This document shows positions 25,408-44,960 of a stretch of 64,000 nucleotides of DNA, piece by piece (position 1 is the stretch's first letter; each line of letters opens with the position of its first letter). Under the pieces are notes generated by a model. That model made no database searches. It was not told the DNA's origin and saw nothing but the letters and a program-made list of their open reading frames with translations. The DNA is from Paracrocinitomix mangrovi (lineage in GTDB: Bacteria; Bacteroidota; Bacteroidia; Flavobacteriales_D; Crocinitomicaceae). Position numbers and translations under genes: made by a program. The stretch spans positions 2,418,001 to 2,482,000 of the forward strand of contig NZ_CP091819.1 in the NCBI RefSeq assembly GCF_019740355.2, in the 5' to 3' direction.

Positions 25408-25453
25408 CTTTTATATAGGGATAAAGTTTATTAACTTTATTTGTACGTTAGGG
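25408..25453 (+). repeat. S0: first array boundary, atypical short attC- or attI-like site
   Basis: GTTAGGG (25447-25453) is preceded by a perfect hairpin ATAAAGTT-TATT-AACTTTAT (25421-25440). No proper R'' box is seen; CCTTTTA lies at the expected place. It could be a worn attC or an attI-like site. Confidence 0.5.
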
Positions 25454-25470
25454 TGCATTAAGATTAGCAA

Positions 25471-25764
25471 ATGTCTACAAAGCATAAAGAGAAACTTGTA
25501 CTTCTACTGGAAAATCCATTAAATTCCGAAACCGACCATTTGGAAATATTGCATGATTTATATTTCGAATGGCGTGACGGATACGAATATCTAGAACCTG
25601 TTGCCAAGTATTACATAAACGGATTGGACGAATTACCTGGTTTAAAGGTCAAGAATTTATGGAATGAGGATAAGTTCAATGAATCTCGGAAGCCTTTTAC
25701 AGACAGTTATCCAGAGCTTCACGCTATTGTATTGGGTATCTTGCAAAAAGAAAACGCACCCTAA
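25471..25764 (+). CDS. Cassette 1 protein, unknown function
   Basis: A 97-residue acidic, soluble protein with aromatic-rich stretches (LYFEWRDGYEYLEPVAKYYING). No family recognised and no signal peptide. It starts 18 bases after boundary S0. Its stop codon TAA (25762-25764) is the TAA inside the R'' box CCCTAAC of site S1. The cassette start box GTTAGGG and its end box CCCTAAC are exact complements. Confidence 0.7.
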   Translation: MSTKHKEKLVLLLENPLNSETDHLEILHDLYFEWRDGYEYLEPVAKYYINGLDELPGLKVKNLWNEDKFNESRKPFTDSYPELHAIVLGILQKENAP

Positions 25765-25950
25765 CACAGTAAGCAAAGCTCACGTCCTACACTTTGTCCA
25801 CGCGCAAAAGCGCCCATTACTTGTACAAATCCGGGCAGCCATCTCACGGTCGGACAGCCAAAGTCCGGGGTTTTCTTGCCAGCGCACTTCGCACGTGTTT
25901 TGCACTTGCTGCGCAAGCAGCAAATCACTAGCTTTGCTCAAACGTTAGGC
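25759..25950 (+). repeat. S1: attC-like site, 192 bp
   Basis: R'' CCCTAAC, L'' AGCAAAGCT, L' AGCTTTGCT (a perfect complement of L'') and R' GTTAGGC (25944-25950). The central part belongs to the long family also seen in S8, S10, S11 and S12 (ATCCGGGCAGCC, CGGTCGGACAGCC, TCCGGGGTTTT). Confidence 0.85.
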
Positions 25951-25957
25951 TGAATTA

Positions 25958-26392
25958 GTGGATAAGCAGATAAAATATTTCAAATGGAATCCGGATCGAA
26001 TAGATTTGAATATTCACTTAGGACAAGAAATTCAACCATTAATTGAGTCAAAAATAGTATCTCAAGTCTCAGATGAGGATGATTACACCTATATTCTTCA
26101 GTCCAACAATAGCATAAAGGTTAGCACTGAGCAGGGTCTAATCACTCGAATTTCAATTTCGAACCAACCAAAAATGTCGTTTTTCAAAATTCTTAAACAA
26201 GAAATTTCAGTACCCTCTTCACAGGAACTTAAAACTTTGGAATTTGTGGTTAATGAACTTGGAAAGCAATTCGAATCAATGCCAGATCCACCTACAGAAA
26301 ATGGTCGACTTGTATTGCCGACTGGTGAAATTCTAATGCAAGTGTTCAGAGATTGGCAACCAATTGTCACTTTTATCATAAAGAAAAACTAA
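25958..26392 (+). CDS. Cassette 2 protein, unknown function
   Basis: A 144-residue soluble protein from GTG 25958, 8 bases after R' of S1; no better ATG exists. Its strand-rich N-terminal half (SNNSIKVSTEQGLITRISIS) and C-terminal ending (VFRDWQPIVTFIIKK) recall small immunity-type proteins, but I cannot name a family. The stop precedes R'' of S2 directly. Start box GTTAGGC and end box GCCTAAA agree except for one base. Confidence 0.6.
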   Translation: MDKQIKYFKWNPDRIDLNIHLGQEIQPLIESKIVSQVSDEDDYTYILQSNNSIKVSTEQGLITRISISNQPKMSFFKILKQEISVPSSQELKTLEFVVNELGKQFESMPDPPTENGRLVLPTGEILMQVFRDWQPIVTFIIKKN

Positions 26393-26479
26393 GCCTAAAA
26401 CAGTCCTAAAGCTTACGTCTGAAACTTGACCGCCGCACTTGCTCCTCAATAAATTGCTATTTTTACTCAAACGTTAGGT
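26393..26479 (+). repeat. S2: attC-like site, 87 bp
   Basis: R'' GCCTAAA, L'' CCTAAAGC, R' GTTAGGT (26473-26479). A short form with CCGCACTTGCTCCTCAATAAATTGCTA in the centre, of the same family as S13 and S25. Confidence 0.75.
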
Positions 26480-26491
26480 TTAATTGACGAT

Positions 26492-26995
26492 ATGACTGAA
26501 AAAAAAGATCTCTCTATTTACACTATTTGTATGGGCAACTTTGAAAGATCTGTCATATGGGATAAATGTGAAGCTAAGTTTTCGCGCATATTTAAAGAAC
26601 CAGAACTTTTTCCTCAAATCTTTGCAGAATTTCGAATTAATAACAACGAGGAAGAATTACCGATTTGTTGCTGTAAAATAGACGATAAAAACTGGAGCCT
26701 TTTAACAACTCGAAAACTGTTCACTTCTAAAGCTGGAATTATCAACATTATTGACATGGAAACTGCACAATTGGACAGTTACCGAAACCCTCATAATTTT
26801 AACGAACCCTATACTCTAGGACTACTAATAACTCATGACGGAAATGACCATGAGTTTTTCATTGAAAACGGATATTGTTGTCAAGTAATGGTTTCTGCCA
26901 TTCATGAAAGGTTAATTCTTCAAAAAAATTCAGAGGAGGAAAATCAACGGAAAATTAAAATGTTAATTCGGAGAGGGTTTCTAGAGGAAAACTAA
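26492..26995 (+). CDS. Cassette 3 protein, unknown function
   Basis: A 167-residue soluble protein with an unusual Cys triplet (ELPICCCKIDDKNW) and a second pair (NGYCCQVMV). It has no signal peptide and no family I recognise. It begins 13 bases after S2 with ATG 26492; its stop lies just before R'' of S3. Confidence 0.65.
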   Translation: MTEKKDLSIYTICMGNFERSVIWDKCEAKFSRIFKEPELFPQIFAEFRINNNEEELPICCCKIDDKNWSLLTTRKLFTSKAGIINIIDMETAQLDSYRNPHNFNEPYTLGLLITHDGNDHEFFIENGYCCQVMVSAIHERLILQKNSEEENQRKIKMLIRRGFLEEN

Positions 26996-26996
26996 A

Positions 26997-27103
26997 GCTA
27001 ATACAGTAGCTAAAGCTAAGCGTCCGCACTTCAAGACGGCATTCTACTTCAGCTTCGCTTCCGTAGAACAAGGTAAATGCCTAATTTTACCCAAACGTTA
27101 GGT
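26997..27103 (+). repeat. S3: attC-like site, 107 bp
   Basis: R'' AGCTAAT, L'' GCTAAAG, L' TTTTACC and R' GTTAGGT (27097-27103). The stem region holds the hairpin TTCTAC-TTCAGCTTCGCTTCC-GTAGAA, shared with S10 and S12. Confidence 0.8.
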
Positions 27104-27122
27104 GTCATTAATCCCAAATCCA

Positions 27123-27539
27123 ATGAAACTAATTAATTATTATGCAGCTGGAGCATTATTACCTGGACTTATAGGAGCAATAGTGATGTTGATAATTTCT
27201 TCTCAAATCAATTCTGACTACAAGAGCGAATGGCTTACAAAAGAATCAGCAATCGGAATGGACTTAATGATTTCATTTATATTTTCCATTGGTTATGCTA
27301 TTGCTGGACTTACATTATTTCTGAACAAATTTGAAAATGTTAGAAATAAACCTTTGACAAGTTTTCTTGCATGGAATTTACTCCCTTTTATTTGGGTTGG
27401 AATAACAGTTTATATGTTTGCTAGATCAGGGGCACTTCAAGAAATTGAAGTGAAAATTTACGTATCTGCATTAACAATTCCTTATGCAATCTGTTTCGTT
27501 TCTTCATACTTAGTTTTCAGGAAGAAAAACGCTACCTAA
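27123..27539 (+). CDS. Cassette 4 membrane protein, four predicted spans
   Basis: From ATG 27123 the product has 138 residues and four hydrophobic segments, starting AAGALLPGLIGAIVMLIISS and ending YAICFVSSYLVF, with a short Lys-rich tail. An upstream in-frame GTG at 27102 lies inside the R' box of S3 and is rejected. Its stop TAA is the TAA of the R'' box ACCTAAC of S4. Start box GTTAGGT and end box ACCTAAC are exact complements. No family recognised. Confidence 0.7.
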   Translation: MKLINYYAAGALLPGLIGAIVMLIISSQINSDYKSEWLTKESAIGMDLMISFIFSIGYAIAGLTLFLNKFENVRNKPLTSFLAWNLLPFIWVGITVYMFARSGALQEIEVKIYVSALTIPYAICFVSSYLVFRKKNAT

Positions 27540-27671
27540 CACAATAGGTAAAGCGCATGTCCTTCCCTTTTTTGCCAACTATCCCAACAGCTATCGGGAT
27601 CACACCCAATTCAACTACAATTTCATTTTCGTTGAACAAAGTAAATGCCTAACTTTAGTCAAGCGTTACAG
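27534..27671 (+). repeat. S4: attC-like site, 138 bp
   Basis: R'' ACCTAAC, L'' GGTAAAG, L' ACTTTAGTC, R' GTTACAG (27665-27671, non-canonical). The centre holds a degenerate palindrome TCCCAACAGCTATCGGGA (27582-27599) and the hairpin TTCAAC/GTTGAA. Confidence 0.8.
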
Positions 27672-27686
27672 CTAATTCCTTCAAGA

Positions 27687-28079: not shown

Positions 28080-28087
28080 AAAACGTG

Positions 28088-28197
28088 AGCTAAAACAATA
28101 TGTAAAGCCTGCGCCCAAGAGCTACGCAAATACAATTCAACAGACATTTCATTTTCATTGAACGAAGTAATTTGCTAGCTTTACTCAAACGTTATGT
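28088..28197 (+). repeat. S5: attC-like site, 110 bp
   Basis: R'' AGCTAAA, spacer AACAATA, L'' TGTAAAG, L' CTTTACTC, R' GTTATGT (28191-28197), with the TTCAAC/TTGAAC hairpin in the stem. Confidence 0.75.
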
Positions 28198-28218
28198 GTT
28201 ATTACAATATTGCCAAAA

Positions 28219-28533: not shown

Positions 28534-28581
28534 AAAATCATTACTTGTACATGCTGGAAGTGTTACGTCTAGAAAAATGCC

Positions 28582-28685
28582 ACACAACACAATAGCTAAA
28601 GTCCGAAACTTGTTCACACACAATTCAACCACAATTTCATTTTCGTTGAACAAAGTAAATTGCTAGCTTTAGCCAAACGTTAGCT
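28582..28685 (+). repeat. S6: attC-like site, 104 bp
   Basis: R'' ACACAAC, spacer ACAATA, L'' GCTAAAG, L' CTTTAGC (perfect complement), R' GTTAGCT (28679-28685), hairpin TTCAAC/GTTGAA. Confidence 0.85.
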
Positions 28686-28697
28686 GTCATTGACAAT

Positions 28698-29078
28698 ATG
28701 AGTGAATTAATTGATGAAAATGAAAAGTTCGGAACTAAGCATCAATTTATTTTCGGACAGAACTCAATGACAATTCGTGAAAGAAAGCTAACTGGAAGTC
28801 GTACGGTTATTGAAATACCTTTAAATGACATTCAGGAAATCAATTACATAAAACCGAGAATTTCGACAATTGCTATTCTACTTTCTATTTTGTTATTTCC
28901 AATTATATTCATTTTTGAATTCGGAATTTTCGGACCAATATTTCAAAAGTCTATAGTGCAAATCAAATATAATGTTGGAGGTGAATTGGCTATCGGAAAC
29001 TACATTTCCAAAATCAGCAAGAAAGACTTGCAGGAAATGAAATCCCTAGTAAAAAACGGTACCTATCACAATAGGTAA
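28698..29078 (+). CDS. Cassette 7 membrane-anchored protein, PH-like
   Basis: A 126-residue protein. A strand-rich start (HQFIFGQNSMTIRERKL, EIPLNDIQEINYI) is followed by a hydrophobic pair of segments at about residues 57-80 and then VQIKYNVGGELAIGNYIS. The pattern recalls bacterial PH-like membrane proteins, tentatively. The R'' box of S7 has mutated from CTAAC to CTATC, so translation runs on through HNR and stops at the in-frame TAA of L''. Confidence 0.6.
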   Translation: MSELIDENEKFGTKHQFIFGQNSMTIRERKLTGSRTVIEIPLNDIQEINYIKPRISTIAILLSILLFPIIFIFEFGIFGPIFQKSIVQIKYNVGGELAIGNYISKISKKDLQEMKSLVKNGTYHNR

Positions 29079-29198
29079 AGCGCATGTTCTACCCTTTTTT
29101 GCCAATCCTCCCAATAGCTATCGGGATCGCACGCAATTCAACTACAATTTTATTTTCGTTGAACAAAGTAAATTGCTAGCTTTAGCCACACGTTAGCA
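29062..29198 (+). repeat. S7: attC-like site, 137 bp
   Basis: R'' ACCTATC (mutated), L'' GGTAAAG, L' CTTTAGCC with one extra base, R' GTTAGCA (29192-29198). It holds a degenerate palindrome TCCCAATAGCTATCGGGA (29109-29126) and the TTCAAC/GTTGAA hairpin. Confidence 0.8.
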
Positions 29199-29209
29199 TC
29201 AATTACAAT

Positions 29210-30142
29210 ATGACTAAAGTAATATTTACAATATTTCTTTTTGTTGGAATTTCTTGTCATTGTCAAATTGATTTAACGAATTCAACTTGGATCACCACCC
29301 ATAAGACAACCTTTAAATTCTTCGACAAGTCGGTTCAGGCATCTCATCTAGACTATTTATCTGAATATGAAATTAATGGTGACACCTTACATTTTATCCA
29401 TGATTTTTCAGTAGTTGAAAGTGTAACTGTTGGAAAGAAGAAAATCCCAAGAAGAGATTTTGAATTACCAGATTCATATTTCATTATGAGTCAATCAAAT
29501 CCTGACTCTTTAATTTTGACCGCTATAAATCCGACAGCCATTCATCTTGTCAATGAATTAAAAGGCAGTTTTGGTTATTACCTTACGGACAAGGAAGCAA
29601 TTAAATGGGAAAAATCAGGAAATCCTCCCCAAAATTTACCTAAACAACTGGACAGAACCTTAACTTTTTGGAATATCAATACTATTAAAAAAGACCGCCA
29701 AATTCATTCAATAGACATGTCAACAGTTTCTTATGGGTGGACAGGAATACATTATTTTGATATCAAATTTGATAGCAGCTTGAATTATTCCTGTCGCAGA
29801 ATAGTTCAAGACTACAATAGCAAAGAAAAAATTGAAACATTCTACTTCAATGGGAGATTTGATCAATACCAGTTTGACAAAATTGAAAGATTATTTGGAT
29901 TATCAGATTTACCTGACTCGGGTTCAACTAAATTCAACAGAGTAATGGCAACACATGACTCAAATTTTAGTCTAACTGTTAAACACAATCTTGGTATTTC
30001 ATCAATGGCAGGAAATCGAGCTTCCCTGCCTGATTACGTTCGAGATTTCTTTGACTCTATTCACAGATATTTTCCATTAGAAGAGGATGAAACAGAAATT
30101 GAACAAACCGATTTTCCTGAATCCATGTTTGTAAAAAACTGA
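29210..30142 (+). CDS. Cassette 8 secreted protein, unknown function
   Basis: A 310-residue protein with a signal peptide (VIFTIFLFVGISCHCQ). The N-terminal part begins with the lipocalin-like phrase LTNSTWITTHKTTFKFF; the second half (from about residue 150) is strand rich. Cys16 or Cys18 could be a lipidation site, but the signal is not classical. It starts 12 bases after S7. The cassette ends GTTAGCA/TGCTAAC are exact complements. Function unknown. Confidence 0.65.
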   Translation: MTKVIFTIFLFVGISCHCQIDLTNSTWITTHKTTFKFFDKSVQASHLDYLSEYEINGDTLHFIHDFSVVESVTVGKKKIPRRDFELPDSYFIMSQSNPDSLILTAINPTAIHLVNELKGSFGYYLTDKEAIKWEKSGNPPQNLPKQLDRTLTFWNINTIKKDRQIHSIDMSTVSYGWTGIHYFDIKFDSSLNYSCRRIVQDYNSKEKIETFYFNGRFDQYQFDKIERLFGLSDLPDSGSTKFNRVMATHDSNFSLTVKHNLGISSMAGNRASLPDYVRDFFDSIHRYFPLEEDETEIEQTDFPESMFVKN

Positions 30143-30304
30143 TGCTAACACAGTAGGTTAAGTTCATGCCCGACACTCTGGCCACGCTTTTCCCTCCCAG
30201 TACGTGTACATATCCGGGCTGCCATCTCCCAATAGCTATCGGACCGGGGTTTTGGCCACCGCACTCGCATACGATAAATTGTTAGCTTTGCTTAAACGTT
30301 ATGT
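30143..30304 (+). repeat. S8: attC-like site, 162 bp
   Basis: R'' TGCTAAC, L'' GGTTAAG, L' GCTTTGCTT, R' GTTATGT (30298-30304). Long-family centre (ATCCGGGCTGCC) in which the CGGTCGGAC segment is replaced by a degenerate palindrome TCCCAATAGCTATCGGA (30227-30243). Confidence 0.8.
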
Positions 30305-30320
30305 ACCATTCGCTAGACTT

Positions 30321-30827
30321 ATGGCAAATTGCCCTCATTGTGGAGAAAAATTAGGATTTTGGAAAGTCATCTCATTGAAACCTGAGACAAATCTTATCGA
30401 GTGCCATAATTGTAATTATAACTTGAAGGCAGAAATCCATTACTTGTATCACAAAGTCCTTACAATTTTAATTGTAGCCGTTGCAGGTATTAGATTATCG
30501 AAATGGATCAAAGATGAAATGATACCCGGAAGTAATCTTGTTCTTATTCTATCCATTTTAATTTTTATTGTCGGACTGAGATATTTCTATAACAAAGTAA
30601 CTCTGGTTGTATACAATACGGGAGAAAAATCAATAGGAGATATTTATCAGGAAATAAACCAAACAAAATTAGAGGCTGCAAAAATCAAGGAAATAAAGAA
30701 ATTTAAAGAACAATATTTCAACATGAAAAACTCTGAACTGGAGGAAATCGCAACTCAAAACGGCTGGCAAGAAACTGCTAAGATTGCTGCCCAAGAAATT
30801 CTGAGTGCAAGGAAAAATGATACCTAA
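30321..30827 (+). CDS. Cassette 9 zinc-ribbon-like membrane protein
   Basis: The 168-residue protein starts with CPHCGEKLGFW and continues with IECHNCNYNLK, a CxxC/CxxC zinc ribbon. Two membrane spans (VLTILIVAVAGIRL and LVLILSILIFIVGLRYFY) and a Lys/Glu-rich helical tail follow. The open frame continues up to 30204, but that part is S8; ATG 30321 is 17 bases after R'. The stop TAA sits in an ACCTAAA box, the remnant of an otherwise missing site (S9). Confidence 0.7.
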   Translation: MANCPHCGEKLGFWKVISLKPETNLIECHNCNYNLKAEIHYLYHKVLTILIVAVAGIRLSKWIKDEMIPGSNLVLILSILIFIVGLRYFYNKVTLVVYNTGEKSIGDIYQEINQTKLEAAKIKEIKKFKEQYFNMKNSELEEIATQNGWQETAKIAAQEILSARKNDT

Positions 30828-30834
30828 AGGTAAC
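30822..30834 (+). repeat. S9: remnant left half of an attC-like site
   Basis: ACCTAAAGGTAAC looks like R'' fused to L''. No right half follows, and the next gene starts 31 bases later. This suggests a deletion that fused two cassettes. Confidence 0.45.
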
Positions 30835-30865
30835 TTCCAATAGGATTAGTATTATATTAAAAGAA

Positions 30866-31704: not shown

Positions 31705-31902
31705 ACCTAACACAGTAGGTAAAATTCATAGCCATCACTTTGGCCGCGCTTTCCCTCTCAGTACTCGTACATATCCGGGTGGCCACTACTCGGTCGGACA
31801 GCCAGAGCACGGGTTTTGGCCACCGCACTTCAAGACGGCATTCTACTTCAGCTTCGCTTCCGTAGAACAAGGTAAATGCCTAACTTTACGCAAACTTTAG
31901 CA
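31705..31902 (+). repeat. S10: attC-like site, 198 bp
   Basis: R'' ACCTAAC, L'' GGTAAAATT, L' AACTTTACG, R' TTTAGCA (31896-31902; the first G, where cleavage occurs in integrons, is T). Nearly identical over its length to S12. Confidence 0.8.
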
Positions 31903-32428: not shown

Positions 32429-32628
32429 TGCTAACACAGTAAGCAAAGCTCACGTCCACCCTTGGCCAGCACACTTGCTCCCAGTTGCGTGTACAAAATC
32501 CTGGTTTGGCCTAACACGGTGGACAGCCAGAGTCCGGGGTTTTGGCTTACGTACTTTCGCACGCAATTCAACTACAATTTTATTTTCGTTGAACAAAGTA
32601 AATTGCTAGCTTTAGCCAAACGTTAGGT
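32429..32628 (+). repeat. S11: attC-like site, 200 bp, chimeric
   Basis: R'' TGCTAAC and L'' AGCAAAGCT match S1, but the right end (GTTGAACAAAGTAAATTGCTAGCTTTAGCC, here as GTTGAA...CTTTAGCC) matches S6/S7. The L arms therefore pair poorly. R' GTTAGGT is 32622-32628. Confidence 0.75.
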
Positions 32629-32655
32629 TTAATTAATAGTTACCTTGAATTGTTG

Positions 32656-33459
32656 ATGACATCAATTGGTAAATACTTATTTGCAGTGCTTAGGTTTATA
32701 TTCTTTTTTCTTTTATTCGGTTCAAATAGTTTATTTGGTCAAGTTTGGCCATCAAAAGGTATCAGCAATTTAAAGGGTAATGTTCTTCAAATTCGAGAAA
32801 CGACAATGACGCCCGTAAAATCGAAAAAAGAACTTGGAATATGCGACACGAATTCAATTTCGATATACGTACTGAATAACCAAGGAACTTTATCCAGAGA
32901 TACTTTTATAATTTGGCCTTTTGACATTTGGCCAAACATGGACACTTCGATTACGGAGTATTTCTATAGTGACTCTGGACTTTTGATATCAGAGCACTAT
33001 TGTGATCTTGGAAATGACTTTTGCAACGACAATATTTATGAGTTTAATCAAAATGGTCAACCATCAGCTGTAATTGTTTATTCTGCAAAAGGTGACTCTA
33101 TTAGCAGAATAGAATATGACTATAATACTGATGGATTAGAAATTGAAAGAAGAATTTATAGTGCCTTTGTGATCGGAGGTAATCTACTCTACACTTATCA
33201 GTTTGAATATAATTCAAATCGTGAGATTACTAGCAGAAGATATTTTACAGCAGATGGAAAGGTTAAATCATACAATGTATTTGAATATCAGAACGGACTT
33301 TATATAAAATCCATTGTAGATCCTATTAAAGGAAAAAAAATTATTGAAGAAATATCCTATGTATTTGACGAAGTCGGAAATTGGGTTTCAAAAACTTCAA
33401 GAGTGAATGGAAAAATAACGGGCTTTGTGACTCGTGAAATCATATATAAGAAAAACTAA
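32656..33459 (+). CDS. Cassette 12 secreted YD-repeat-like protein
   Basis: From ATG 32656 the product has 267 residues, with a signal peptide (FFFLLFGSNSLFGQ) and then repeats of the RHS/YD type: YEFNQNGQPSAVIVYSAKG, YDYNTDGLEIERRIY, FEYNSNREITSRRYF. Its C-terminal strand YVFDEVGNWVSKTSR resembles that of the cassette gene at 36629. A TTG at 32650 is a less likely start. Probably periplasmic or surface-located; role unknown. Confidence 0.7.
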   Translation: MTSIGKYLFAVLRFIFFFLLFGSNSLFGQVWPSKGISNLKGNVLQIRETTMTPVKSKKELGICDTNSISIYVLNNQGTLSRDTFIIWPFDIWPNMDTSITEYFYSDSGLLISEHYCDLGNDFCNDNIYEFNQNGQPSAVIVYSAKGDSISRIEYDYNTDGLEIERRIYSAFVIGGNLLYTYQFEYNSNREITSRRYFTADGKVKSYNVFEYQNGLYIKSIVDPIKGKKIIEEISYVFDEVGNWVSKTSRVNGKITGFVTREIIYKKN

Positions 33460-33660
33460 ACCTTACACAGTAGGTAAAGTTCAAGCCCGACACTCTGGCC
33501 ACGCTTTTCCCTCCCAGTGCGTGTACATATCCGGGCTGCCATCTCTCGGTCGGACAAACCAGAATCCGGGGTTTTGGCCACCGCACATCAAGACGGCATT
33601 CTACTTCAGCTTCGCTTCCGTAGAACAAGGTAAATGCCTAACTTTACCCAAACGTTAGCA
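33460..33660 (+). repeat. S12: attC-like site, 201 bp
   Basis: R'' ACCTTAC, spacer ACAGTA, L'' GGTAAAGTT, L' AACTTTACC (perfect complement), R' GTTAGCA (33654-33660). Contains the TTCTAC/GTAGAA hairpin and the long-family centre. Confidence 0.88.
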
Positions 33661-33668: not shown

Positions 33669-34409
33669 GTGAGCATATTCAGTAGACTTTTTCAAAAATC
33701 TAATCAAATTGAGAAACCCTACAATTTGGACTCTCTTGATGAAGTACGCGCTGAGAAACGAATTGAAATTTTTGAAGAATTAGTTTCACCTGTTATGAGC
33801 TCAATAGGTCTAAACAATTGGAATGGCAAATACCTTTGGTTTAGTGACTTTAATTCTGAAGGAATTAAATTTGTGGTTGAGTACCAAGTTTTCAAGGGTT
33901 TTGGCGGTTCTTTCGCTTTCGGAATATGCTACGAAAATGTACCAACCGTCTCAAATTGGAAAAAACTGGTTAATCACAAAACTGACAAGTCAACTAAAAT
34001 ACATTATTACAAGAGGCTTGAGGGATGGCAAGCAAGCTATGACGGAACTGACCGCACTTCAGGTCGTGACATAGTTAGCCATTGGAATGAAGTTGATTTT
34101 CGAAAGACGCTCTTTACAATTTTAGAAAGCTTGCCGTCAAGATTAGAGCCGTGGTTCAAAGCAAGATCAAATAGGGACCAAAACATTCTGGAACTACAAA
34201 ATGAAATCAAAGGAAACACAGAGTTTGTTCGCAGAATAGTGAATCCCGATTATATACTTTGCTTTCTGAACGCCGAAAAGGGTGATCTTGAAAAAAGTAA
34301 AGTACATTTCTCCAAGTACTTTGATGAGAAACTTGCTATATCAAAAGAATTCGAGCCTATGCAGGAACTTATCTCAAAGCGAATTGAAAAACTAACCCTA
34401 ACACAGTAG
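33669..34409 (+). CDS. Cassette 13 protein, unknown function
   Basis: A 246-residue soluble protein from GTG 33669, 9 bases after S12. The first half (ELVSPVMSSIGLNNWNGKYL, KFVVEYQVFKGFGGSFAFGI) resembles DUF4304-like folds; the second half is helical and TPR-like (FLNAEKGDLEKSKVHFSKYF). The last residues LTQ are encoded by site S13 itself (CTAACACAG) and the stop is the TAG of its spacer. Confidence 0.65.
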   Translation: MSIFSRLFQKSNQIEKPYNLDSLDEVRAEKRIEIFEELVSPVMSSIGLNNWNGKYLWFSDFNSEGIKFVVEYQVFKGFGGSFAFGICYENVPTVSNWKKLVNHKTDKSTKIHYYKRLEGWQASYDGTDRTSGRDIVSHWNEVDFRKTLFTILESLPSRLEPWFKARSNRDQNILELQNEIKGNTEFVRRIVNPDYILCFLNAEKGDLEKSKVHFSKYFDEKLAISKEFEPMQELISKRIEKLTLTQ

Positions 34410-34484
34410 GTAAAGCTAAGCGTCCACACTTGGCCGGCGCACTTGGATCCTCAATAAATTGCTAACTTTAACCAAACGTTAGGT
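34396..34484 (+). repeat. S13: attC-like site, 89 bp
   Basis: R'' CCCTAAC, spacer ACAGTA, L'' GGTAAAG, L' CTTTAACC with one extra base, R' GTTAGGT (34478-34484). Short family with GGCGCACTTGGATCCTCAATAAATTGCTA. Confidence 0.8.
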
Positions 34485-35538: not shown

Positions 35539-35642
35539 ACATAACACAATAGGTAAAGTCCGAAACTTGTTCACACTCAAGTTAACTACAATTTCATTTT
35601 CTTTCAACAAAGTAAATTACTAGTTTTAAGTAAACTTTAGAT
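35539..35642 (+). repeat. S14: attC-like site, 104 bp
   Basis: R'' ACATAAC, spacer ACAATA, L'' GGTAAAG, L' TTTTAAG, R' TTTAGAT (35636-35642; first G is T). The stem hairpin arms are worn (TTAAC/TTTCAAC). Confidence 0.65.
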
Positions 35643-36448: not shown

Positions 36449-36611
36449 TTATAACAACTTAGTAAAAAACTGAGCGCTAGATTATAAATTAAGCATAGAC
36501 ACTTCCCTCTTTTGCCAACTCTTCAGATAGCTTTCGGGATCACACGCAATTCAACTACAATTTCATTTTCGTTGAACAAAGTAAATTGTTAGTTTTAAGT
36601 AAACGTTAGCT
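36449..36611 (+). repeat. S15: attC-like site, 163 bp
   Basis: R'' TTATAAC and L'' TAGTAAAAAAC are worn; L' GTTTTAAG and R' GTTAGCT (36605-36611) are clear. It contains a degenerate palindrome TTCAGATAGCTTTCGGGA (36522-36539) and the TTCAAC/GTTGAA hairpin. Confidence 0.65.
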
Positions 36612-37413: not shown

Positions 37414-37515
37414 GCATAAACACAATAGCTAAAGTCCGAAACTTGTGCACAAGCAATTCAACAGACATTTCATTTTCTTTCAACAAAGTAAATTGCTAGT
37501 TTTAGTCATAATTAA
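37414..37515 (+). repeat. S16: attC-like site with lost R' box
   Basis: R'' GCATAAA, spacer CACAATA, L'' GCTAAAG, stem hairpin TTCAAC/TTTCAAC, L' GTTTTAGT. The expected GTTAG is missing; CATAATTAATTGC follows instead. Right edge approximate. Confidence 0.6.
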
Positions 37516-37562
37516 TTGCAATCGTAACGCTTTAAATTAAGAACGTTATCATCAAAAAACCC

Positions 37563-38767: not shown

Positions 38768-38877
38768 TGCTAGCTCATGAGGTAAAGTGAATGTCTGAAA
38801 CTTGTTCGCGCACAATTCCACTACAATTTCATTTTCGTTGGATAATGTAAATTGTTAGTTTTAGGCAAATGATAATT
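38768..38877 (+). repeat. S17: attC-like site, degenerate, 110 bp
   Basis: R'' TGCTAGC, L'' GGTAAAG, stem AATTCCACTACAATTTCATT, L' GTTTTAGGC, R' GATAATT (38871-38877). Boxes are mutated but the layout is kept. Confidence 0.6.
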
Positions 38878-38881: not shown

Positions 38882-39649
38882 ATGACCCAAAAGACTTCAG
38901 TGTTAATATCCTTTGCTTTTTTGATTTCGTGTGGAACGAAAACGAGTCCTGAATCTGGAACACATGACCTACAAGAATCTAATTTAGCTGACTCAGTAAT
39001 TACTGAAATGGAAGCAATGACGGACACATCTGAGTTTGAAATTCTTTATTCCGACTCATGTCAATTGCAAGTAAATGTTCTGTACGATTATAACGAGAAT
39101 TTATACTCGAGAGAAGTTGAAGATAGTTTGGAATTACTCTATGAAAAACAAGGGAAATTTCAATTCTATGACAGAAACATTCCAGAAGAAGAAAACTATC
39201 CAGAAACCATTCTTCCCGGTAAGTTGAAACTTCTCCAAGGCGGAGTTAAAGCTTCATTATGCCCAAAATTAGAATTTGAATTTATGAACGGAATTCTTCA
39301 AGTTTCAAATGATACTTGCATAAGTAAAAACCCGCATAATTTAAGCACTAGTTTCAGTTCAGCATTTAAAACTGATGAGACAACTATAAATAATCGTATC
39401 TATCAAGATATTGGCTATATCTACATTACACCCACTAAGGACTATCATGAATGTGAAGACATACAAATTAGATCCTTCAAATGGCAAACTTGGTCGCACG
39501 GAAGTGTTGAAATTAAAGGCTTACGTAATTTCGAAATGTTTCTTGTTGATGCTGACGGAGATGACATAGATGAAATCTACCTTATCACATTTGATCAGCT
39601 GCACTACCTTGAAAAAGTTGTGAGCTTAAAACTGCGCCTAACACAGTAG
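38882..39649 (+). CDS. Cassette 18 lipoprotein, unknown function
   Basis: A 255-residue protein with lipobox LISC (Cys17) after a short hydrophobic stretch. The mature part is acidic at first (SPESGTHDLQESNLADS) and ends with VDADGDDIDEIYLITF, a Ca-binding-like acidic loop. The last residues LTQ and the TAG stop are encoded by the R''/spacer of S18, as in cassette 13. Starts 5 bases after S17. No family recognised. Confidence 0.65.
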   Translation: MTQKTSVLISFAFLISCGTKTSPESGTHDLQESNLADSVITEMEAMTDTSEFEILYSDSCQLQVNVLYDYNENLYSREVEDSLELLYEKQGKFQFYDRNIPEEENYPETILPGKLKLLQGGVKASLCPKLEFEFMNGILQVSNDTCISKNPHNLSTSFSSAFKTDETTINNRIYQDIGYIYITPTKDYHECEDIQIRSFKWQTWSHGSVEIKGLRNFEMFLVDADGDDIDEIYLITFDQLHYLEKVVSLKLRLTQ

Positions 39650-39737
39650 CTAAAGTCCGAAACTTGTGCACAAGCAATTCAACAGACATTTCTTTTTCGT
39701 TGAACAAAGTAAATTGCTAGTTTTAGGTAAACATGAG
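39636..39737 (+). repeat. S18: attC-like site, R' worn
   Basis: R'' GCCTAAC, spacer ACAGTA, L'' GCTAAAG, TTCAAC/GTTGAA hairpin, L' GTTTTAGG. The R' position reads CATGAGT and supplies a possible start codon. Right edge approximate. Confidence 0.65.
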
Positions 39738-39786
39738 TAATAATAACTTAGTCGTTACTTTATTCAGTTTTTGCGTTTTAGCAACA

Positions 39787-40416
39787 ATGAAATTTTTTCT
39801 ACTTATATCACCATTTTTTGTACTTCTTAGCTGTAATAATGTGAATTTGAGTGAAGAACCTAAGTCAAATGAAGGTTTATTTTACCCTGATACTGTTCAA
39901 TTCGAACAAATTAGCACTAAAATTCTACTGGATGACAATGATATTTTTGATACTATTTACACAACTTACTCATCAACTTTTTGCGGATTACAATGGCGAG
40001 GAATTAAGCTTTCCAATAGCAACTATTTTAATGAAGACACTATAAAAAGTTGGCAATTTCATCAATTAGATTCAATGCATTTTATGGTATTCGATTATTC
40101 AATTGGACATTCTGAATTCATTAACACTCACATGATGTCAAGCATAAATGCAAAAACTGAAGCATTTTTAGTTACCTGGGATAGTAATATTAAAGATATG
40201 GATACTATATGGACAGAACACTTATACGGATTTCCATGTGGTAATTATCTATTAGAAACAGAATTGGACAATTCTTATGATCTTATATATTACAAGAAAA
40301 TAGCACAAATAGACACCATAAGTTTTGGAGTTAGTTGCATATATAAAGGAAATAACACAAAAGACAAGTTAGATCAGTTTACAAATATTATTGAAAGTGT
40401 AGTTATTAGAAATTGA
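39787..40416 (+). CDS. Cassette 19 lipoprotein, unknown function
   Basis: From ATG 39787 the product is a 209-residue lipoprotein with lipobox LLSC (residue 16) directly after a clean hydrophobic signal. The longer frame from 39733 starts inside the worn R' of S18 and adds 18 residues that weaken the signal. Contains several Trp and Cys residues (STFCGLQWRG, GFPCGNYLL). No family recognised. Confidence 0.6.
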   Translation: MKFFLLISPFFVLLSCNNVNLSEEPKSNEGLFYPDTVQFEQISTKILLDDNDIFDTIYTTYSSTFCGLQWRGIKLSNSNYFNEDTIKSWQFHQLDSMHFMVFDYSIGHSEFINTHMMSSINAKTEAFLVTWDSNIKDMDTIWTEHLYGFPCGNYLLETELDNSYDLIYYKKIAQIDTISFGVSCIYKGNNTKDKLDQFTNIIESVVIRN

Positions 40417-40437: not shown

Positions 40438-40515
40438 ATTATTCTGGGGATTTTTATAAAACATAAATCACCTTGGCATATACCTTTCTTTGTTCAGATG
40501 TCATGGTTAACTCAG

Positions 40516-41121
40516 TTATCTGCCTATTAATTTTGAAAGAATCCAGTCTGTTGACCAATAAGCAGTGAGCATTGTTTTGGACAACATGAAATACATCCTT
40601 CTTTGTTCATCCAAATAATTATCTCTTGTTTCAGTTGTGGGATAGCCTACACCATACATTTTTAAAACGCGAAGAATTAAATCCTTGTCAATGATATCAC
40701 TTTCTTGAATCATCTTTACGTATTCCTTATAATCTACATCAAAATGTCCCTTGTGAGCATACAGCTCACGTTTCCCTTTATAAACTTGAAAGACAGAATC
40801 TTTGAGAGTTATATAGTATTTGTTCAGAACAGGAGAAATTAATTGAAAAGAAGGTTCAATTGCCCATTTACCATTTTTTTTAATGATACCGTACCGATTC
40901 GAAGTGTCAGCCACTGTAGTTAAATTACAATTAAAACCAAAAGCTTTGCGAAACTGGGCACCAACTATTATTCTCTCATTTTTTTTAAACCCTGTTAAAT
41001 TATTTGAATCCATGAAAATAGTTGGTTTAGAGACACTGATGTAAGAAGAATCCGTGTATTTCTGGGTTAAGGAATAGTGAACCGATAAAACAGAAAGTAG
41101 TATTAGCAAAATCCTATACAT
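40516..41121 (-). CDS. Cassette 20 secreted WG-repeat-like protein, reversed
   Basis: The only gene in the array on the minus strand. The 201-residue product has a signal peptide (ILLILLSVLSVHYSLTQ) and one WG-like repeat (RYGIIKKNGKWAIEPSFQLI). WG repeats occur in secreted proteins of Bacteroidota; role unknown. It reads against the array and ends near the S19 remnant, which suggests inversion or insertion of a non-cassette piece, or a cassette with its gene reversed. Confidence 0.65.
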   Translation of the reverse strand: MYRILLILLSVLSVHYSLTQKYTDSSYISVSKPTIFMDSNNLTGFKKNERIIVGAQFRKAFGFNCNLTTVADTSNRYGIIKKNGKWAIEPSFQLISPVLNKYYITLKDSVFQVYKGKRELYAHKGHFDVDYKEYVKMIQESDIIDKDLILRVLKMYGVGYPTTETRDNYLDEQRRMYFMLSKTMLTAYWSTDWILSKLIGR

Positions 41122-41141
41122 TGCATAAATTTAAAAACTAA

Positions 41142-41266
41142 TGCCAACAAAATAACTAAAGCGAATACCTTACTTTTGTACCAACTCTCCCGATAGCTAT
41201 CGGGATCGCACGCATTTTCATTTTCGTTGAACAAAGTAAATTGCTAGTTTTAGGTAAACGTTAGCA
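41142..41266 (+). repeat. S20: attC-like site, 125 bp
   Basis: R'' TGCCAAC, spacer AAAATA, L'' ACTAAAG, L' GTTTTAGG, R' GTTAGCA (41260-41266). The loop contains a perfect TCCCGATAGCTATCGGGA at 41188-41205. Confidence 0.75.
41188..41205. repeat. 18-bp perfect palindrome TCCCGATAGCTATCGGGA
   Basis: Fourth perfect copy, inside the variable part of S20. Degenerate copies occupy the same part of S4, S7, S8 and S15. Confidence 0.85.
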
Positions 41267-41276
41267 ATAATTGGAT

Positions 41277-41717
41277 ATGAATAAACGGACTGGCATTATA
41301 TTAAGATCATTTGCTAGAGTTTCTGTCTTACCAATTCTTGTATTTTCTATTACTTCATGGTTGATATTAAAATTTGTCGAACCTGGAACTTACCATTCTG
41401 GTTGTTTAGATTCTCCTGAGGAAACTCGAACAGATTTGGTTGAAGCCATATTCTTGGTGCTAATTTATCTAGGGACAACACCCTTAGTTTTATTGAATTT
41501 CAGCGAAAAAATAGTTACAAAACAAACCATACGGATCTCAGTATTATTGATGCCATTAATTCCGGTATTGATAGGGCTTTTTTCAATAACAGTTCCACAG
41601 TTAATTTATTATGATGCAAGAGTTTTTATGTATCTGTCAATTTCTGCCGTCATAACTACTATCATCATTCTCTGGAATGCCAGATCAGTAAATCGGGAAC
41701 TGAAAAAAATCCGCTAA
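41277..41717 (+). CDS. Cassette 21 membrane protein, four predicted spans
   Basis: A 146-residue protein with four hydrophobic segments (VSVLPILVFSITSWLILKF, AIFLVLIYLGTTPLVLL, LLMPLIPVLIGLFSI, YLSISAVITTIIILW), similar in plan to cassette 4. ATG 41277 follows R' of S20 by 11 bases. The stop is the TAA inside the R'' box CGCTAAC of S21. Cassette ends GTTAGCA/CGCTAAC differ at one base. No family recognised. Confidence 0.65.
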   Translation: MNKRTGIILRSFARVSVLPILVFSITSWLILKFVEPGTYHSGCLDSPEETRTDLVEAIFLVLIYLGTTPLVLLNFSEKIVTKQTIRISVLLMPLIPVLIGLFSITVPQLIYYDARVFMYLSISAVITTIIILWNARSVNRELKKIR

Positions 41718-41791
41718 CCTATTAGGTAATTCAATTGCTATTTCATTTTCGTTGAACGAAGTAAATTGTTAGTTTTAGGTAAAAGTTAGCA
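41712..41791 (+). repeat. S21: attC-like site, 80 bp
   Basis: R'' CGCTAAC, spacer CTATTA, L'' GGTAA, a shortened stem, L' GTTTTAGG, R' GTTAGCA (41785-41791). The shortest full site. Confidence 0.75.
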
Positions 41792-41805
41792 TTCATTAGC
41801 CCAAT

Positions 41806-42759
41806 ATGAAAAAGATCAATATATACATACTTCTTACTGTCTTGCTATTTGCTTGTTCAAATGCCACAAATGATAATAATGAAACGGAAAAAGAAAAACT
41901 AGGTGAGAACACTTACGAGCATGACCTTAGTTCTTTCAAATCCAAAATCAAGCAAAATGGTTTCGTCTCGGACGGAAAAACACCAGAACCACCTAGCGAG
42001 CTATTCAGTTTAGTTAAATATGAATCTGAAGTTGGTTCATTAGATGCTTACCTCAGTGCTAATGTCGATACAAGTCGTAAAAACCCGATAATTATTTGGG
42101 CACATGGTGGATTCGGTGGTATTGGAAGCTGGTTTTGGGAATATGGAAGTTACACCCAGCCCTTTGTTGATGCTCAAATACCTGTTATGTGTCCATCTTG
42201 GAGAGGCGAAAACGAAAATCCCGGAGAATATGAAATGTTTTTGGGTGAGGTTCATGATTTTAAAATGGCAATTGATTATGCAAAAGAATTACCATATGTT
42301 GACACTAACCGAATATATGTGGCCGGTCATAGTACTGGCGGAACTCTTGCAATTTTAGTTTCACTTTTATCTAATGATATTCGTGCAACATTTTCGTTTG
42401 GTGGTGCTCCAGACATTTACGCAGTTGTTGAAAATGGAGAAGGGTATGGAAATACTCCTTTTAAATATTCTAACAAAGATGAATCATTCGTGAGATCCTC
42501 TATTAATTATGTCAAAGACATCAAAAATTCAATTTTCTATTTTGAAGGCGAGGAGTCATTTTATCCAGAATATGCTAATGAAATGGAATCAAAAGCCACA
42601 GCATTGAACAAACCATTTAATTCAATCATAATTCCCGGAGAGACTCATTTTAGCGTTGTTCTTCCTATAGAGGAACTTATTGTTCAAAAAATTCTATCTG
42701 ATACAACTCAGAAATTAACGATAGACTTTACTGATTCTGAAGTGTTAGAACTGTTTTGA
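41806..42759 (+). CDS. Cassette 22 alpha/beta-hydrolase lipoprotein (S9 peptidase-like)
   Basis: The 317-residue protein is a lipoprotein (lipobox FACS, Cys17) with an alpha/beta-hydrolase fold. The oxyanion motif is AHGG (residues 99-102), the nucleophile elbow is GHSTGG (Ser176) and the catalytic His is probably His281 in PGETHFS. The acidic member may lie in FEGEESF. The layout matches prolyl-oligopeptidase-like S9 enzymes and esterases; substrate unknown. One of the few cassette genes with a recognisable enzyme fold. Confidence 0.8.
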   Translation: MKKINIYILLTVLLFACSNATNDNNETEKEKLGENTYEHDLSSFKSKIKQNGFVSDGKTPEPPSELFSLVKYESEVGSLDAYLSANVDTSRKNPIIIWAHGGFGGIGSWFWEYGSYTQPFVDAQIPVMCPSWRGENENPGEYEMFLGEVHDFKMAIDYAKELPYVDTNRIYVAGHSTGGTLAILVSLLSNDIRATFSFGGAPDIYAVVENGEGYGNTPFKYSNKDESFVRSSINYVKDIKNSIFYFEGEESFYPEYANEMESKATALNKPFNSIIIPGETHFSVVLPIEELIVQKILSDTTQKLTIDFTDSEVLELF

Positions 42760-42767
42760 AAAACTTC

Positions 42768-42877
42768 ACCTAACATATTAGTAAAAGCTAAGGTTCGAAA
42801 CTTTTTCAAAAGCAACATAACTACTATTTCATTTTCGTTGAACAAAGTAAATTGCTAGTTTTAGGTAAAAGATAACC
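42768..42877 (+). repeat. S22: attC-like site, 110 bp
   Basis: R'' ACCTAAC, spacer ATATTA, L'' GTAAAAG, L' GTTTTAGG, R' GATAACC (42871-42877, T to A at position 2). Stem hairpin partly kept (GTTGAA only). Confidence 0.65.
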
Positions 42878-42894
42878 GTAACTACCCAAAACTG

Positions 42895-43581
42895 ATGAGA
42901 TTTTTATTATTTGCAACTTTTGGAATTGCCTTATTGCTAATCTCCTGTTCATCTGATCAACAGCAGAACAGGCGAGATTATTTTTATCAAATAGATGAGT
43001 TTAAAACACCAAAAGTACTGGTGTATGAACAAGAAAACAATCCATTCGGAACACAAAAACAATACTTCGTAATAAAACAAAAATCGGAGAGTGCTCTTGA
43101 CATTGAAATCATCCAAGAAGAATTAGGAACATTTCAGGAGTTAACGGATGAGTACACTGAAAAGGGAGTATCATTGTATAGTTCGGCACATTACTTCCCT
43201 GAAGGGAATAGAACTGAAGAAGAAATCATAATGAATCAAATATTTTCGTTTGATTCAGACACAATTGGAAATCTCAAAACTCAATTTCAGGACAAATACA
43301 CAAAGGAAATGGTAATCGACGAAACGTTCTGGATATTTAAGAGTTATGATCTAGATAGCATGAACAATGAAATTATGATTACCGAGGGACTTTATACACG
43401 AGAGAGAAAACTATATGACACTAGCAGTTACTGGCATCAAGAAATTCCATTGGAAATAATCTATACAAAAGGGATAGGTCCCACTCGAATTACCTACAAT
43501 GCAGGGCCCAAACAAACTCAGCTGCGCTATATCAAATCCATCACATTGAGCGAATTTGAAAAACTACAAGTAACTCAGTAG
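42895..43581 (+). CDS. Cassette 23 lipoprotein, unknown function
   Basis: A 228-residue protein with lipobox LISC (Cys18). The mature part is rich in Gln and Glu with several aromatic strands; no family recognised. The last residues VTQ and the TAG stop are encoded by R'' and spacer of S23 (GTAACTCAGTAG), the third case of this tail. Starts 18 bases after S22. Confidence 0.65.
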   Translation: MRFLLFATFGIALLLISCSSDQQQNRRDYFYQIDEFKTPKVLVYEQENNPFGTQKQYFVIKQKSESALDIEIIQEELGTFQELTDEYTEKGVSLYSSAHYFPEGNRTEEEIIMNQIFSFDSDTIGNLKTQFQDKYTKEMVIDETFWIFKSYDLDSMNNEIMITEGLYTRERKLYDTSSYWHQEIPLEIIYTKGIGPTRITYNAGPKQTQLRYIKSITLSEFEKLQVTQ

Positions 43582-43677
43582 GTAAAGTATACTTCTAACA
43601 TTTGTTTACATTCAACACAACTACAATAACAATTTCATAGAACAAAGTAAATTGTTAGCTTTAGCTTAACGTTATGC
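43568..43677 (+). repeat. S23: attC-like site, 110 bp
   Basis: R'' AAGTAAC, spacer TCAGTA, L'' GGTAAAG, L' CTTTAGC, R' GTTATGC (43671-43677). Confidence 0.7.
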
Positions 43678-43685
43678 ACTAGCGT

Positions 43686-44180
43686 ATGGACTTGATAGAA
43701 AGTATCGGAAATAGAAAAGTAGGTAGAAAATTGATTCATCCTATTGGTCCAAAACAAATTTCAGAATTGCTTGCTGGGATTCCTCAATTTACAGAAATGA
43801 CTATTTTCTTTAAAGACAATTTAGGTGATCCTATCGGAGAAAAAAGGCCTGGTTGGGAGCATAAAAAACTTAAAGGAAATTCTACAGTATATCTAAAATT
43901 CAGGAACCTAATAGATGTAAGCTATAATGGACTGACAGAGAATTGGGCTTTATACATGTTTCCGTTTCATATGGAACAGAGCAAGAAAGCCAAAAATTTT
44001 ATAGTTAAAACCGGACTAATTGTAGCGAAAAATTGGCTAGTAGAAAATCGTGAGGAAACATGGCGCGAAGGTCATAGACATTTAATAGTCGGAGTAACAG
44101 AAGACCTTTCCGAATTCTGCATTTTCGAAACACATGGAGAAAGGATTGTTAGCAAAGAAAAACATTATATAACCCTATAG
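43686..44180 (+). CDS. Cassette 24 protein, unknown function
   Basis: A 164-residue soluble protein, basic overall, with Trp-rich stretches (GLTENWALYMFPF, ETWREGHRHLIVGV). It has no signal peptide and no family I can name. It starts 9 bases after S23. The stop TAG and the last residues ITL come from R''/spacer of S24 (ATAACCCTATAG). Confidence 0.6.
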   Translation: MDLIESIGNRKVGRKLIHPIGPKQISELLAGIPQFTEMTIFFKDNLGDPIGEKRPGWEHKKLKGNSTVYLKFRNLIDVSYNGLTENWALYMFPFHMEQSKKAKNFIVKTGLIVAKNWLVENREETWREGHRHLIVGVTEDLSEFCIFETHGERIVSKEKHYITL

Positions 44181-44276
44181 GTAAAACGCACTTTCGACAC
44201 CTCTTCACACGCAACACAACTACAATTTCATTTTCGTTGAACAAAGTAAATTGCTATTTTTAGGTAAACGTTATGT
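44167..44276 (+). repeat. S24: attC-like site, 110 bp
   Basis: R'' ATATAAC, spacer CCTATA, L'' GGTAAAA, stem GCAACACAACTACAATTTCA, L' TTTTTAGG, R' GTTATGT (44270-44276). Confidence 0.7.
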
Positions 44277-44306
44277 AACATTTAGGATGTTTCAAGTTTT
44301 TTCAAA

Positions 44307-44888
44307 GTGAGTACTATTAAAAATATTATTGTTTTTATTCTATTATCCTTCCAATTTCCTTCATTTGGTCAAGAACGTGACAGTACCGATATTAAAAAAT
44401 ATCTTGAATTAAATGACTATCCATACATTGATACGGTATATTATTTTCAAGAAATAAAAAATAAGCGAGTAAAAAAAGAAGGTTGGAAAGTAATAGAATC
44501 AATAGGCCCAAAGTCACATTTTATTCAAAACAACGACACAACCTATACTGCAACTGGAGAGTATTATTTAGGAGTGTGGAAGTACTACTCGAATTCAGGT
44601 TTAATTGCGATTGACACAAATTTCTATGAAGATGGATATATGCTTTCAAAACAATACAAGTTTCGATCAAATGGTAAATACAAGTATATATTCGTAAAAA
44701 AGATATACTATCAAAAACCAAATGCCGAAAATATCTCAGAAGGCAAAATAAGACAATATGATTTTCATAATAAAGAAACTAAAACTTATTACAACCGGAA
44801 AGGTGTTTTGAAGAGGAAAATTATTTGGGAAAATGACGAAATTCTATTAGAAAAAAGGTTTAAAAGCAGTGCATTACATAATAGTTAA
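44307..44888 (+). CDS. Cassette 25 secreted MORN/YwqK-like protein
   Basis: A 193-residue protein from GTG 44307 with a signal peptide (IIVFILLSFQFPSFGQ). The mature part has MORN-like phrases (GVWKYYSNSGLIAID, YYNRKGVLKRKIIW), related in style to the larger gene at 6085. The stop TAA lies in the L'' box of S25, so the last residues are site-encoded. Start box GTTATGT and end box ACATAAT agree at six of seven positions. Confidence 0.65.
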   Translation: MSTIKNIIVFILLSFQFPSFGQERDSTDIKKYLELNDYPYIDTVYYFQEIKNKRVKKEGWKVIESIGPKSHFIQNNDTTYTATGEYYLGVWKYYSNSGLIAIDTNFYEDGYMLSKQYKFRSNGKYKYIFVKKIYYQKPNAENISEGKIRQYDFHNKETKTYYNRKGVLKRKIIWENDEILLEKRFKSSALHNS

Positions 44889-44960
44889 AGCTAACGTCCA
44901 ACCCTTTGACCTCCGCACTTGGCGCCGCAATAAATTACTAACTTCACCCAAAACTTAACA
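44876..44960 (+). repeat. S25: attC-like site, 85 bp
   Basis: R'' ACATAAT, L'' GTTAAAG, L' CTTCACCC, R' CTTAACA (44954-44960; first G is C). Short family like S2 and S13. Confidence 0.65.

Follow-up and report, generated by a model that had tools for sequence, protein, structure and literature searches.

Matched cassette ends in a worn, integron-like array of Paracrocinitomix mangrovi

The formation of circles by class 1 integron cassettes is established. In ordinary integrons, the two ends of one cassette are complementary over 9–11 bases, as described in PMC2727003, which cites Rowe-Magnus 2003 and Sundstrom 1991 for this complementarity and whose reference list includes a title that terms attI sites non-palindromic. 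Here we describe a cassette array in a 64,000-nucleotide stretch of the Paracrocinitomix mangrovi genome, hereafter the window (G000:C1:2418001-2482000, on one 4.37-Mb contig), where the start of a cassette tends to match the reverse complement of its own end. This array, array E (25447..44960 of the window, plus strand), is very probably one worn section of a cassette system resembling integrons, in which the ends would be kept matched through pairing within an attC site borne on a circle. The own-end match, even in its length, is already known in kind; what is unusual is the system that bears it.

Integron surveys select integrases by an additional domain, as two of them state (PMC8352920, PMC2426708). 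Integrons have been described from the Bacteroidota or the Bacteroidetes/Chlorobi group (PMC9668308, PMC8618304, PMC2426708), and two of these papers require or note the additional domain (PMC9668308, PMC2426708). The paper on IntegronFinder 2.0 (PMC9024848) reports In0 earlier, and it gives one complete integron in Bacteroidetes proper, that of Salinibacter ruber M1. The additional domain and the extrahelical bases of the cassette sites are described as co-evolved, and their joint origin as a chicken-egg paradox, in PMC4792948. Searches of open-access literature, a scope outside which preprints and most subscription papers lie, brought up no description of an integrase without this domain that serves cassette arrays.

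Own-end matching in the window and across the genome

Array E was curated into 23 cassettes with both ends; two more, with ends at 31705 and 41142, lack a start box and do not enter the window counts. Three perfect seven-base own pairs, in which the box that starts a cassette is the reverse complement of its end box, lie where the preliminary description had placed them (25447/25759, 27097/27534, and 29192/30143). Six of the seven pairs listed with one mismatch also stand (26393, 28582, 32429, 33460, 35539, and 41712); the seventh, given as 44876, lies at 44871 and has two mismatches (5/7). The boxes that adjoin within one site are indeed unlike, with TGCTAAC at 30143 opposite GTTATGT at 30298. 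Own seven-base identity is 7 in three of the 23 cassettes, 6 in six, 5 in seven, 4 in one, 3 in four, 2 in one, and 1 in one.

The proposed count of own against neighbouring and shuffled pairs (23 own and 22 neighbour pairs) bears out an excess, which is strong in positions 5–10. Over seven bases, own pairs match at 4.65 positions, neighbours at 4.41, and shuffled pairs at 4.24 (p = 0.019); over positions 5–10, the values are 3.17, 2.50, and 2.13 of 6 (p = 5e-5). When the remnant box at 30821 is moved by one base, a shift chosen by eye, the recount gives 3.30 of 6 for the 23 own pairs versus 2.17 for shuffled pairs in positions 5–10, with 0 of 20,000 shuffles as high, and 162 of 20,000 as high over seven bases. 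The own match in the window reaches ten bases, and positions 5–10 lie partly outside the classical seven-base box. Window neighbours slightly exceed shuffled pairs in the hand-curated set, but not in the automatic parse (2.28 versus 2.29). The own-end match is thus confirmed as an observation, although from the window alone the seven-base evidence is modest and the strong signal is that of positions 5–10.

A model of the right half of the site gave at least 148 matches in the genome (150 of 3721 candidates scored), all but two of which fall in five arrays: array A at 925–952 kb, array B at 1771–1803 kb, array C at 2127–2159 kb (minus strand), array D at 2331–2361 kb, which has an integrase adjoining, and array E. 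Pairs were read in these arrays and in ten loci of two same-genus genomes with weight matrices that scored starts and ends separately, for 191 own and 189 neighbour pairs in total. A 10/10 match is found in 91 of the own pairs and 5 of the neighbour pairs, and a match of at least 9 of 10 in 134 and 8, respectively. In positions 5–10, own pairs match at 4.89 of 6 and neighbours at 2.33. By array, the own, neighbour, and shuffled values are 5.07, 2.40, and 2.56 in B; 4.81, 2.45, and 2.39 in C; 5.44, 2.36, and 2.40 in D; 3.06, 2.22, and 2.07 in A; and 3.67, 2.28, and 2.29 in E (automatic parse, 18 cassettes). The own match has z values of 11–14 in B, C, and D, 3.3 in A, and 4.2 in E. Conserved GTTA and ATT inflate all pairings, and together with the modest seven-base excess in the window this could suggest chance and base composition. 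The shuffles, however, preserve composition, and the positions 5–10 excess holds in every array of at least eight cassettes, with at most 6 of 5000 shuffles reaching the observed value in any of them; to chance we give practically no probability.

Neighbours do not exceed the level of shuffled pairs in the fresh arrays B, C, and D, and there is no sign in these three that neighbouring addresses are picked to be unlike (735, 3710, and 2161 of 5000 shuffles, respectively, at or below the observed value). The match over positions 1–10 falls from the first to the second half of each array, from 9.76 to 7.67 in B, 9.75 to 7.19 in C, and 9.71 to 9.12 in D, and in the worn arrays from 7.56 to 6.44 in E and 6.88 to 5.88 in A. 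Some cassettes are common to two arrays, with no difference between B and D and at 99.6% identity between B and C, which fits movement as single units. Among 18 homologous cassette pairs, which are not independent, 15 have the same ends and one has a one-sided change. The latter is a window cassette (32622..33466, plus strand) that is 98.2% identical to one in array D (G000:C1:2356450); it carries a single one-sided change in its end box, while the ends of its counterpart are still fully matched. The two most diverged pairs (73% and 77% identity) differ by compensated changes alone, at 3 positions in the first and 1 in the second. The preliminary description had taken own-pair matching as the expected outcome of excision as circles with a self-pairing attC. 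The shuffled-like neighbours in B, C, and D, the shared cassettes, and the compensated changes support that proposal, with circles as its putative intermediate.

The class 1 control comprised 16 cassettes from 8 of the 30 plasmid matches listed, with sites found by hairpins alone, blind to the match; some cassettes are mis-delimited (own match of 4–6 of 10 in six), and one gene has no hairpin. Own pairs in this set match at 3.69 of 6 in positions 5–10 and neighbours at 2.06, and ten of the 16 cassettes have an own match of at least 8 of 10. The match extends to 12–13 bases in aadA2, GES-5, aadB, aac(6′)-Ib4, and catB3. A first canonical yardstick, made of 20 IntI loci with flanks of up to 10 kb, was set aside. 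There, scanning for own matches yielded two chains of three and scanning for hairpins one cassette, and the 24 ten-base pairs of these loci, none with A/G at position 11, were no denser than those of array-free flanks (13 in 114 kb) and are thus mostly chance.

Proposed strand choice and cassette cycle

Position 11 is A at the start and G in the reverse complement of the end in 177 of the 191 own pairs. The resulting A/C opposition is unpaired on the top strand and a T.G wobble on the bottom strand. Because the wobble arises only if the bottom strand folds, this pair supports bottom-strand folding. A/G at position 11 is seen in 0 of 16 class 1 cassettes and in 0 of 13 ten-base pairs from array-free flanks of this genome. 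We folded 127 cassettes, preselected for an end match of at least 9 of 10. In the circle form, the bottom strand is more stable than the top strand in 126 of the 127, and the circle-form bottom strand is more stable than the array-form bottom strand in 121, by a mean of 5.1 kcal/mol.

In the proposed cycle, a cassette would leave the array as a circle, in which its first ∼10–13 bases would come to lie on the 3′ border of the cassette's site and there pair with the ∼10–13 bases that end the same cassette. This pairing would form the outer (R) stem of a bottom-strand hairpin, which a tyrosine recombinase would recognise and join to attI or to another cassette site. Cassettes with pairing ends would be the ones integrated, which would keep each start matched to its own end, and neighbours would have little in common beyond GTTA and ATT. 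In an old or idle array the match would decay, as in the window. From the sequence patterns we infer the circles, recombination, use of the bottom strand, selection for pairing, and action in trans on arrays B and C.

Several points weigh against this cycle. Its circles and recombination products are deduced from base patterns, and the R stems pair poorly in the array, so the start of excision lacks an explanation. The advantage of circle over array in 121 of 127 cassettes is nearly built in by choosing matched ends, and the bottom-over-top bias is also present in the array form (124 of 127) and so says nothing for circles. A wobble bias toward the bottom strand is not clear among single mismatches in positions 1–10 (8 bottom, 5 top, 30 other), with 15 of the 30 others being one recurrent mismatch. 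Finally, a de novo own-match scan covered 33 stretches from relatives (24 of 54 related loci and 9 of 11 further stretches) plus one control, and chains that obey the position-11 rule came from only six of the 33, in five genomes (L014, L037, L121, L122, and L123, with L015 weakly); none came from, for example, L016, L019, L021, L022, or L024. Two-hit chains without the rule in L046 and L047 were taken as chance.

The recurrent mismatch lies at position 9 and has a pyrimidine at the start, a purine in the reverse-complemented end, and C at position 10. It accounts for 15 of 43 single-mismatch pairs (such as G000:C1:2337093, G000:C1:2340736, and L110:3512). By eye, the end often seems to carry one extra base at this place in genomes G254 and G190.

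Matched ends could also come from copying instead of selection, either through mismatch repair of the hairpin in the circle or through fold-back synthesis when a cassette is first made, with the match as a by-product. Matches that are often exact over ten bases of varied sequence and that fall with place in the array are consistent with copying, but repair should remove both the top-strand mismatch at position 11, kept in 177 of 191 pairs, and the mismatch that recurs at position 9, and we consider copying unlikely, though still conceivable for positions 5–10. Since start and own end are complementary on one strand, pairing might instead act at the level of RNA, where the two ends of a transcript would form a long-range stem that protects or ends the message. 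The fixed position-11 pair is A–C in the RNA sense, however, and the top strand is less stable than the bottom strand in 126 of 127 cassettes, which leaves this explanation very improbable.

The integrase, the attI platforms, and relatives

The genome holds one close integrase (searched to E 1e-60), a protein of 380 residues at array D, ∼113 kb from the window array. Its stop codon lies ∼50 bases upstream of the first array D cassette, and integrase, palindromic attI, and best-matched array adjoin each other. In an alignment with IntI1, the two insertions of IntI1 are absent from it. The profile TIGR02249 matches it in two pieces below the cut-off, whereas true IntI match in one piece over the cut-off. 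In the first stretch of the IntI additional domain, 3 of 34 columns are filled in 28 of 28 such integrases and 34 of 34 in 21 of 21 IntI; the 28 rows are the integrase itself, two from the same genus, two further ones, and 23 of the 54 related loci, with three rows dropped for stops or length. In a tree, the 21 IntI rows fall on one side of a branch with support of 97/100, and 0 of the 28 such integrases are inside. A clade formed by the 28 themselves is unsupported (26% of bootstrap trees). As judged from these alignments, the integrase is without the IntI additional domain and outside the IntI clade. Membership among IntI-type integrons fails on the enzyme; the description that the system works like an integron stands.

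The integrase has an extra N-terminal region of ∼105 residues with no Pfam match over the cut-off. Its closest solved relatives by sequence are XerA-like (4a8e, 5hxy), followed by IntI (2a3v), and the folds closest to an AlphaFold model of a relative are 5hxy and then 2a3v. The model has a predicted local distance difference test (pLDDT) score of 80.5 and a predicted template modelling (pTM) score of 0.53. A tRNA-Ala (L008:7197-7271) lies shortly upstream of the integrase, and a small minus-strand gene (L008:7415-7807) is divergent from it; the same stretch can be aligned upstream of the integrase in genome G003.

The 189 cassette sites have R″-L″ and L′-R′ arms with AAC and GTT edges, in line with the folds. 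Of the 127 fresh sites from this genus, 106 have an L stem free of bulges (7 have an L″ bulge, 14 an L′ bulge), as do 134 of 189 overall and 8 of 8 Winogradskyella sites, while the same measure finds an L″ bulge in 14 of 16 class 1 controls. As a general rule the bulge-free stem is contradicted by G037 (bulges in 6 of 7) and Flavobacterium (L′ bulge in 6 of 8). Other relatives have bulges in 1 of 3 (G056), 2 of 6 (G174), 1 of 1 (G254), 0 of 3 (G190), and 0 of 1 (Saonia) sites. An earlier test had found a bulge gain of at least 3 in 11 of 189 sites and at least 2 in 45 of 189, with 0 of 19 in relatives; it omitted G037 and could miss bulges near the spacer, which exist in Flavobacterium according to the later test and to the folds.

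Downstream of such integrases, the arms of a palindrome at attI reach at least 10 in 8 of the 17 loci, against a shuffled mean of 0.09 (maximum 1), and at least 7 in 14 of them, against a shuffled mean of 2.4 (maximum 7), with GTT following 3–6 bases past the palindrome in 14 of 17. The palindrome is weak or absent in G042, G190, and the Flavobacterium locus L037. In the P. mangrovi genome the attI pattern occurs three times without mismatch, at D, B, and C, and in worn form at E, and the platform heads have a weak blastn match to each other. Arrays B and C share 305 upstream bases at 81%. A stretch of ∼75 bases upstream of B, C, and D (G000:C1, ∼1769750, 2160400, and 2329350) is 92% identical between B and D and, by eye, altered at C, and may be an outer end mark of the platforms. 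In genome G003, one attI adjoins the integrase and one lies on a different contig; like P. mangrovi, this genome has one close integrase. Arrays A and E look like remnants, but the heads of B and C are not worn, with intact attI and well-matched cassettes. This arrangement suggests that one integrase may serve several attI platforms in trans, although a recent loss of local integrases at B and C would look the same.

Relatives of this integrase occur at E 1e-60 in 30 of 59 near genomes, and at 1e-100 in 4 of 296 genomes drawn from the phylum, the P. mangrovi genome included in both counts. Cassettes that lie downstream of related integrases follow the own-end rule in Winogradskyella, Flavobacterium SM15, G037, G056, G174, and G190, and more weakly in G254 and Saonia. 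Three further complete genomes, picked for a close integrase, all gave own-end pairs. The ten-base own pairs of the relatives were found without a site model, and their counts include chance pairs. Position 11 is A/G in 9 of 13 such pairs in Winogradskyella, 14 of 20 in G037, 6 of 6 in G056, 9 of 12 in Flavobacterium SM15, and 1 of 3 in Saonia; read along the strand of the array, it has the same sense in 8 of 14 in G174, 8 of 11 in G190, and 2 of 7 in G254. The opposite sense is never seen in these eight relatives. In Flavobacterium the match picks up again past position 11, reaching up to 15/16. The detected array lies ∼12 kb from the integrase in G056 and ∼9 kb in G254, and in several drafts the contig stops right past the integrase, as repeats would cause.

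A fuller reading is that of a separate integron lineage without the IntI domain and, in this genus, largely without extrahelical bases. In such a lineage strand choice would come from the fixed T.G wobble at R-stem position 11, and one integrase would feed several distant palindromic attI platforms in trans. We put this forward tentatively, at slightly less than an even chance; the bulges that the earlier test missed in G037 and Flavobacterium lower its probability. If true, the lineage would either predate the co-evolution of the domain with the extrahelical bases or offer an alternative to it. A cassette system lacking the domain makes the question of their joint origin testable. Surveys based on the domain would probably miss such a system or list it as a cluster of attC sites lacking an integron integrase (CALIN). 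The own-end match itself detects cassettes without a site model, and its decay marks old arrays.

Layout of the window array and comparison with known systems

Array E begins at a worn attI-like site (25418..25449, plus strand), in which palindromic arms are followed by GTT; arrays B, C, and D open with intact copies of this site. A tRNA-Asn (25101-25175) lies shortly upstream. Whole-genome searches matched no integrase in the window. With its worn match, worn attI, and lack of a close integrase adjoining, the window array looks like a decayed CALIN remnant. Cassette 1 (25447..25765) starts with GTTAGGGTGC and matches its own end at 10/10, as does the cassette at 29192..30149 (GTTAGCATCA), and the own-end match declines along the array.

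All sites in the array lie on the plus strand. The attC-like sites of its first half are S1 (25759..25950), S2 (26393..26479), S3 (26996..27103), S4 (27534..27671), S5 (28088..28197), S6 (28582..28685), S7 (29061..29198), and S8 (30143..30304), where the own and neighbour boxes are unlike, followed by S10 (31705..31902), S11 (32429..32628), S12 (33460..33660), and S13 (34396..34484). Between S8 and S10, a probable remnant end box (30813..30830, by eye) belongs to the cassette that starts at 30298; the remainder of its site is lost, and it is fused to the next gene. Further along are S14 (35539..35642), S15 (36475..36611) with a worn end box, S16 (37415..37517), which is worn and has an uncertain right edge, S17 (38768..38877), also worn, and S18 (39636..39739) with a worn start box. 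The last sites are S20 (41142..41266), S21 (41712..41791), S22 (42768..42877), S23 (43568..43677), S24 (44167..44276), and S25 (44871..44960). Past the end of the array, 45270-48771 holds more worn half-sites, among them a right half (45270), a sequence resembling a start, CTTAGCATTCATTAC (47828), and end boxes (near 48150 and near 48707).

The cassettes carry one gene each, mostly in one direction. The exception in the window is a single reverse gene (40516-41121), which has a WG-repeat match below the cut-off and is preceded by a possible remnant end box near 40416. Of 27 genes taken from the window array and the worn tail that follows it, three have Pfam matches over the cut-off, to DUF7674, DUF7638/DUF7639, and alpha/beta hydrolase families. 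At gathering scores, Rfam gives a single tRNA and nothing else. Units that end in inverted repeats of ∼10 bases could be taken for a transposon family, yet the repeats vary between cassettes while the inner site is conserved, and units abut through one shared site. Moreover, an attI-like site opens the arrays, one array has a tyrosine recombinase beside it, and Pfam finds no transposase among the same 27 genes, a search that did not extend to all other cassette genes; we regard a transposon origin as exceedingly improbable.

The system resembles integrons in its tandem cassettes, its R″-L″ and L′-R′ arms with AAC and GTT edges, the attI at the head, and the adjoining tyrosine recombinase. It is also like them in that a cassette's own ends are complementary, over 9–11 bases in integrons and up to 12–13 in class 1. 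It differs in its integrase, which lies outside the IntI clade and has no IntI additional domain, in L stems that are mostly bulge-free in this genus, in a palindromic attI, in the fixed A/G at position 11, and in several attI platforms for one close integrase. Unlike the class 1 integrase, which reads opposite to its cassettes, the integrase here reads in the cassette direction. Arrays A, B, and C and the window array are like CALIN in having no close integrase adjoining. B and C differ from CALIN in that each opens with an intact attI and well-matched cassettes; some cassettes of B are identical to ones in D, and some of C are 99.6% identical to ones in B. The nearest solved relatives of the integrase are XerA-like, which recalls XerA and XerCD-dif; in contrast to those systems, the integrase here adjoins cassette arrays and has an extra N-terminal region of ∼105 residues.

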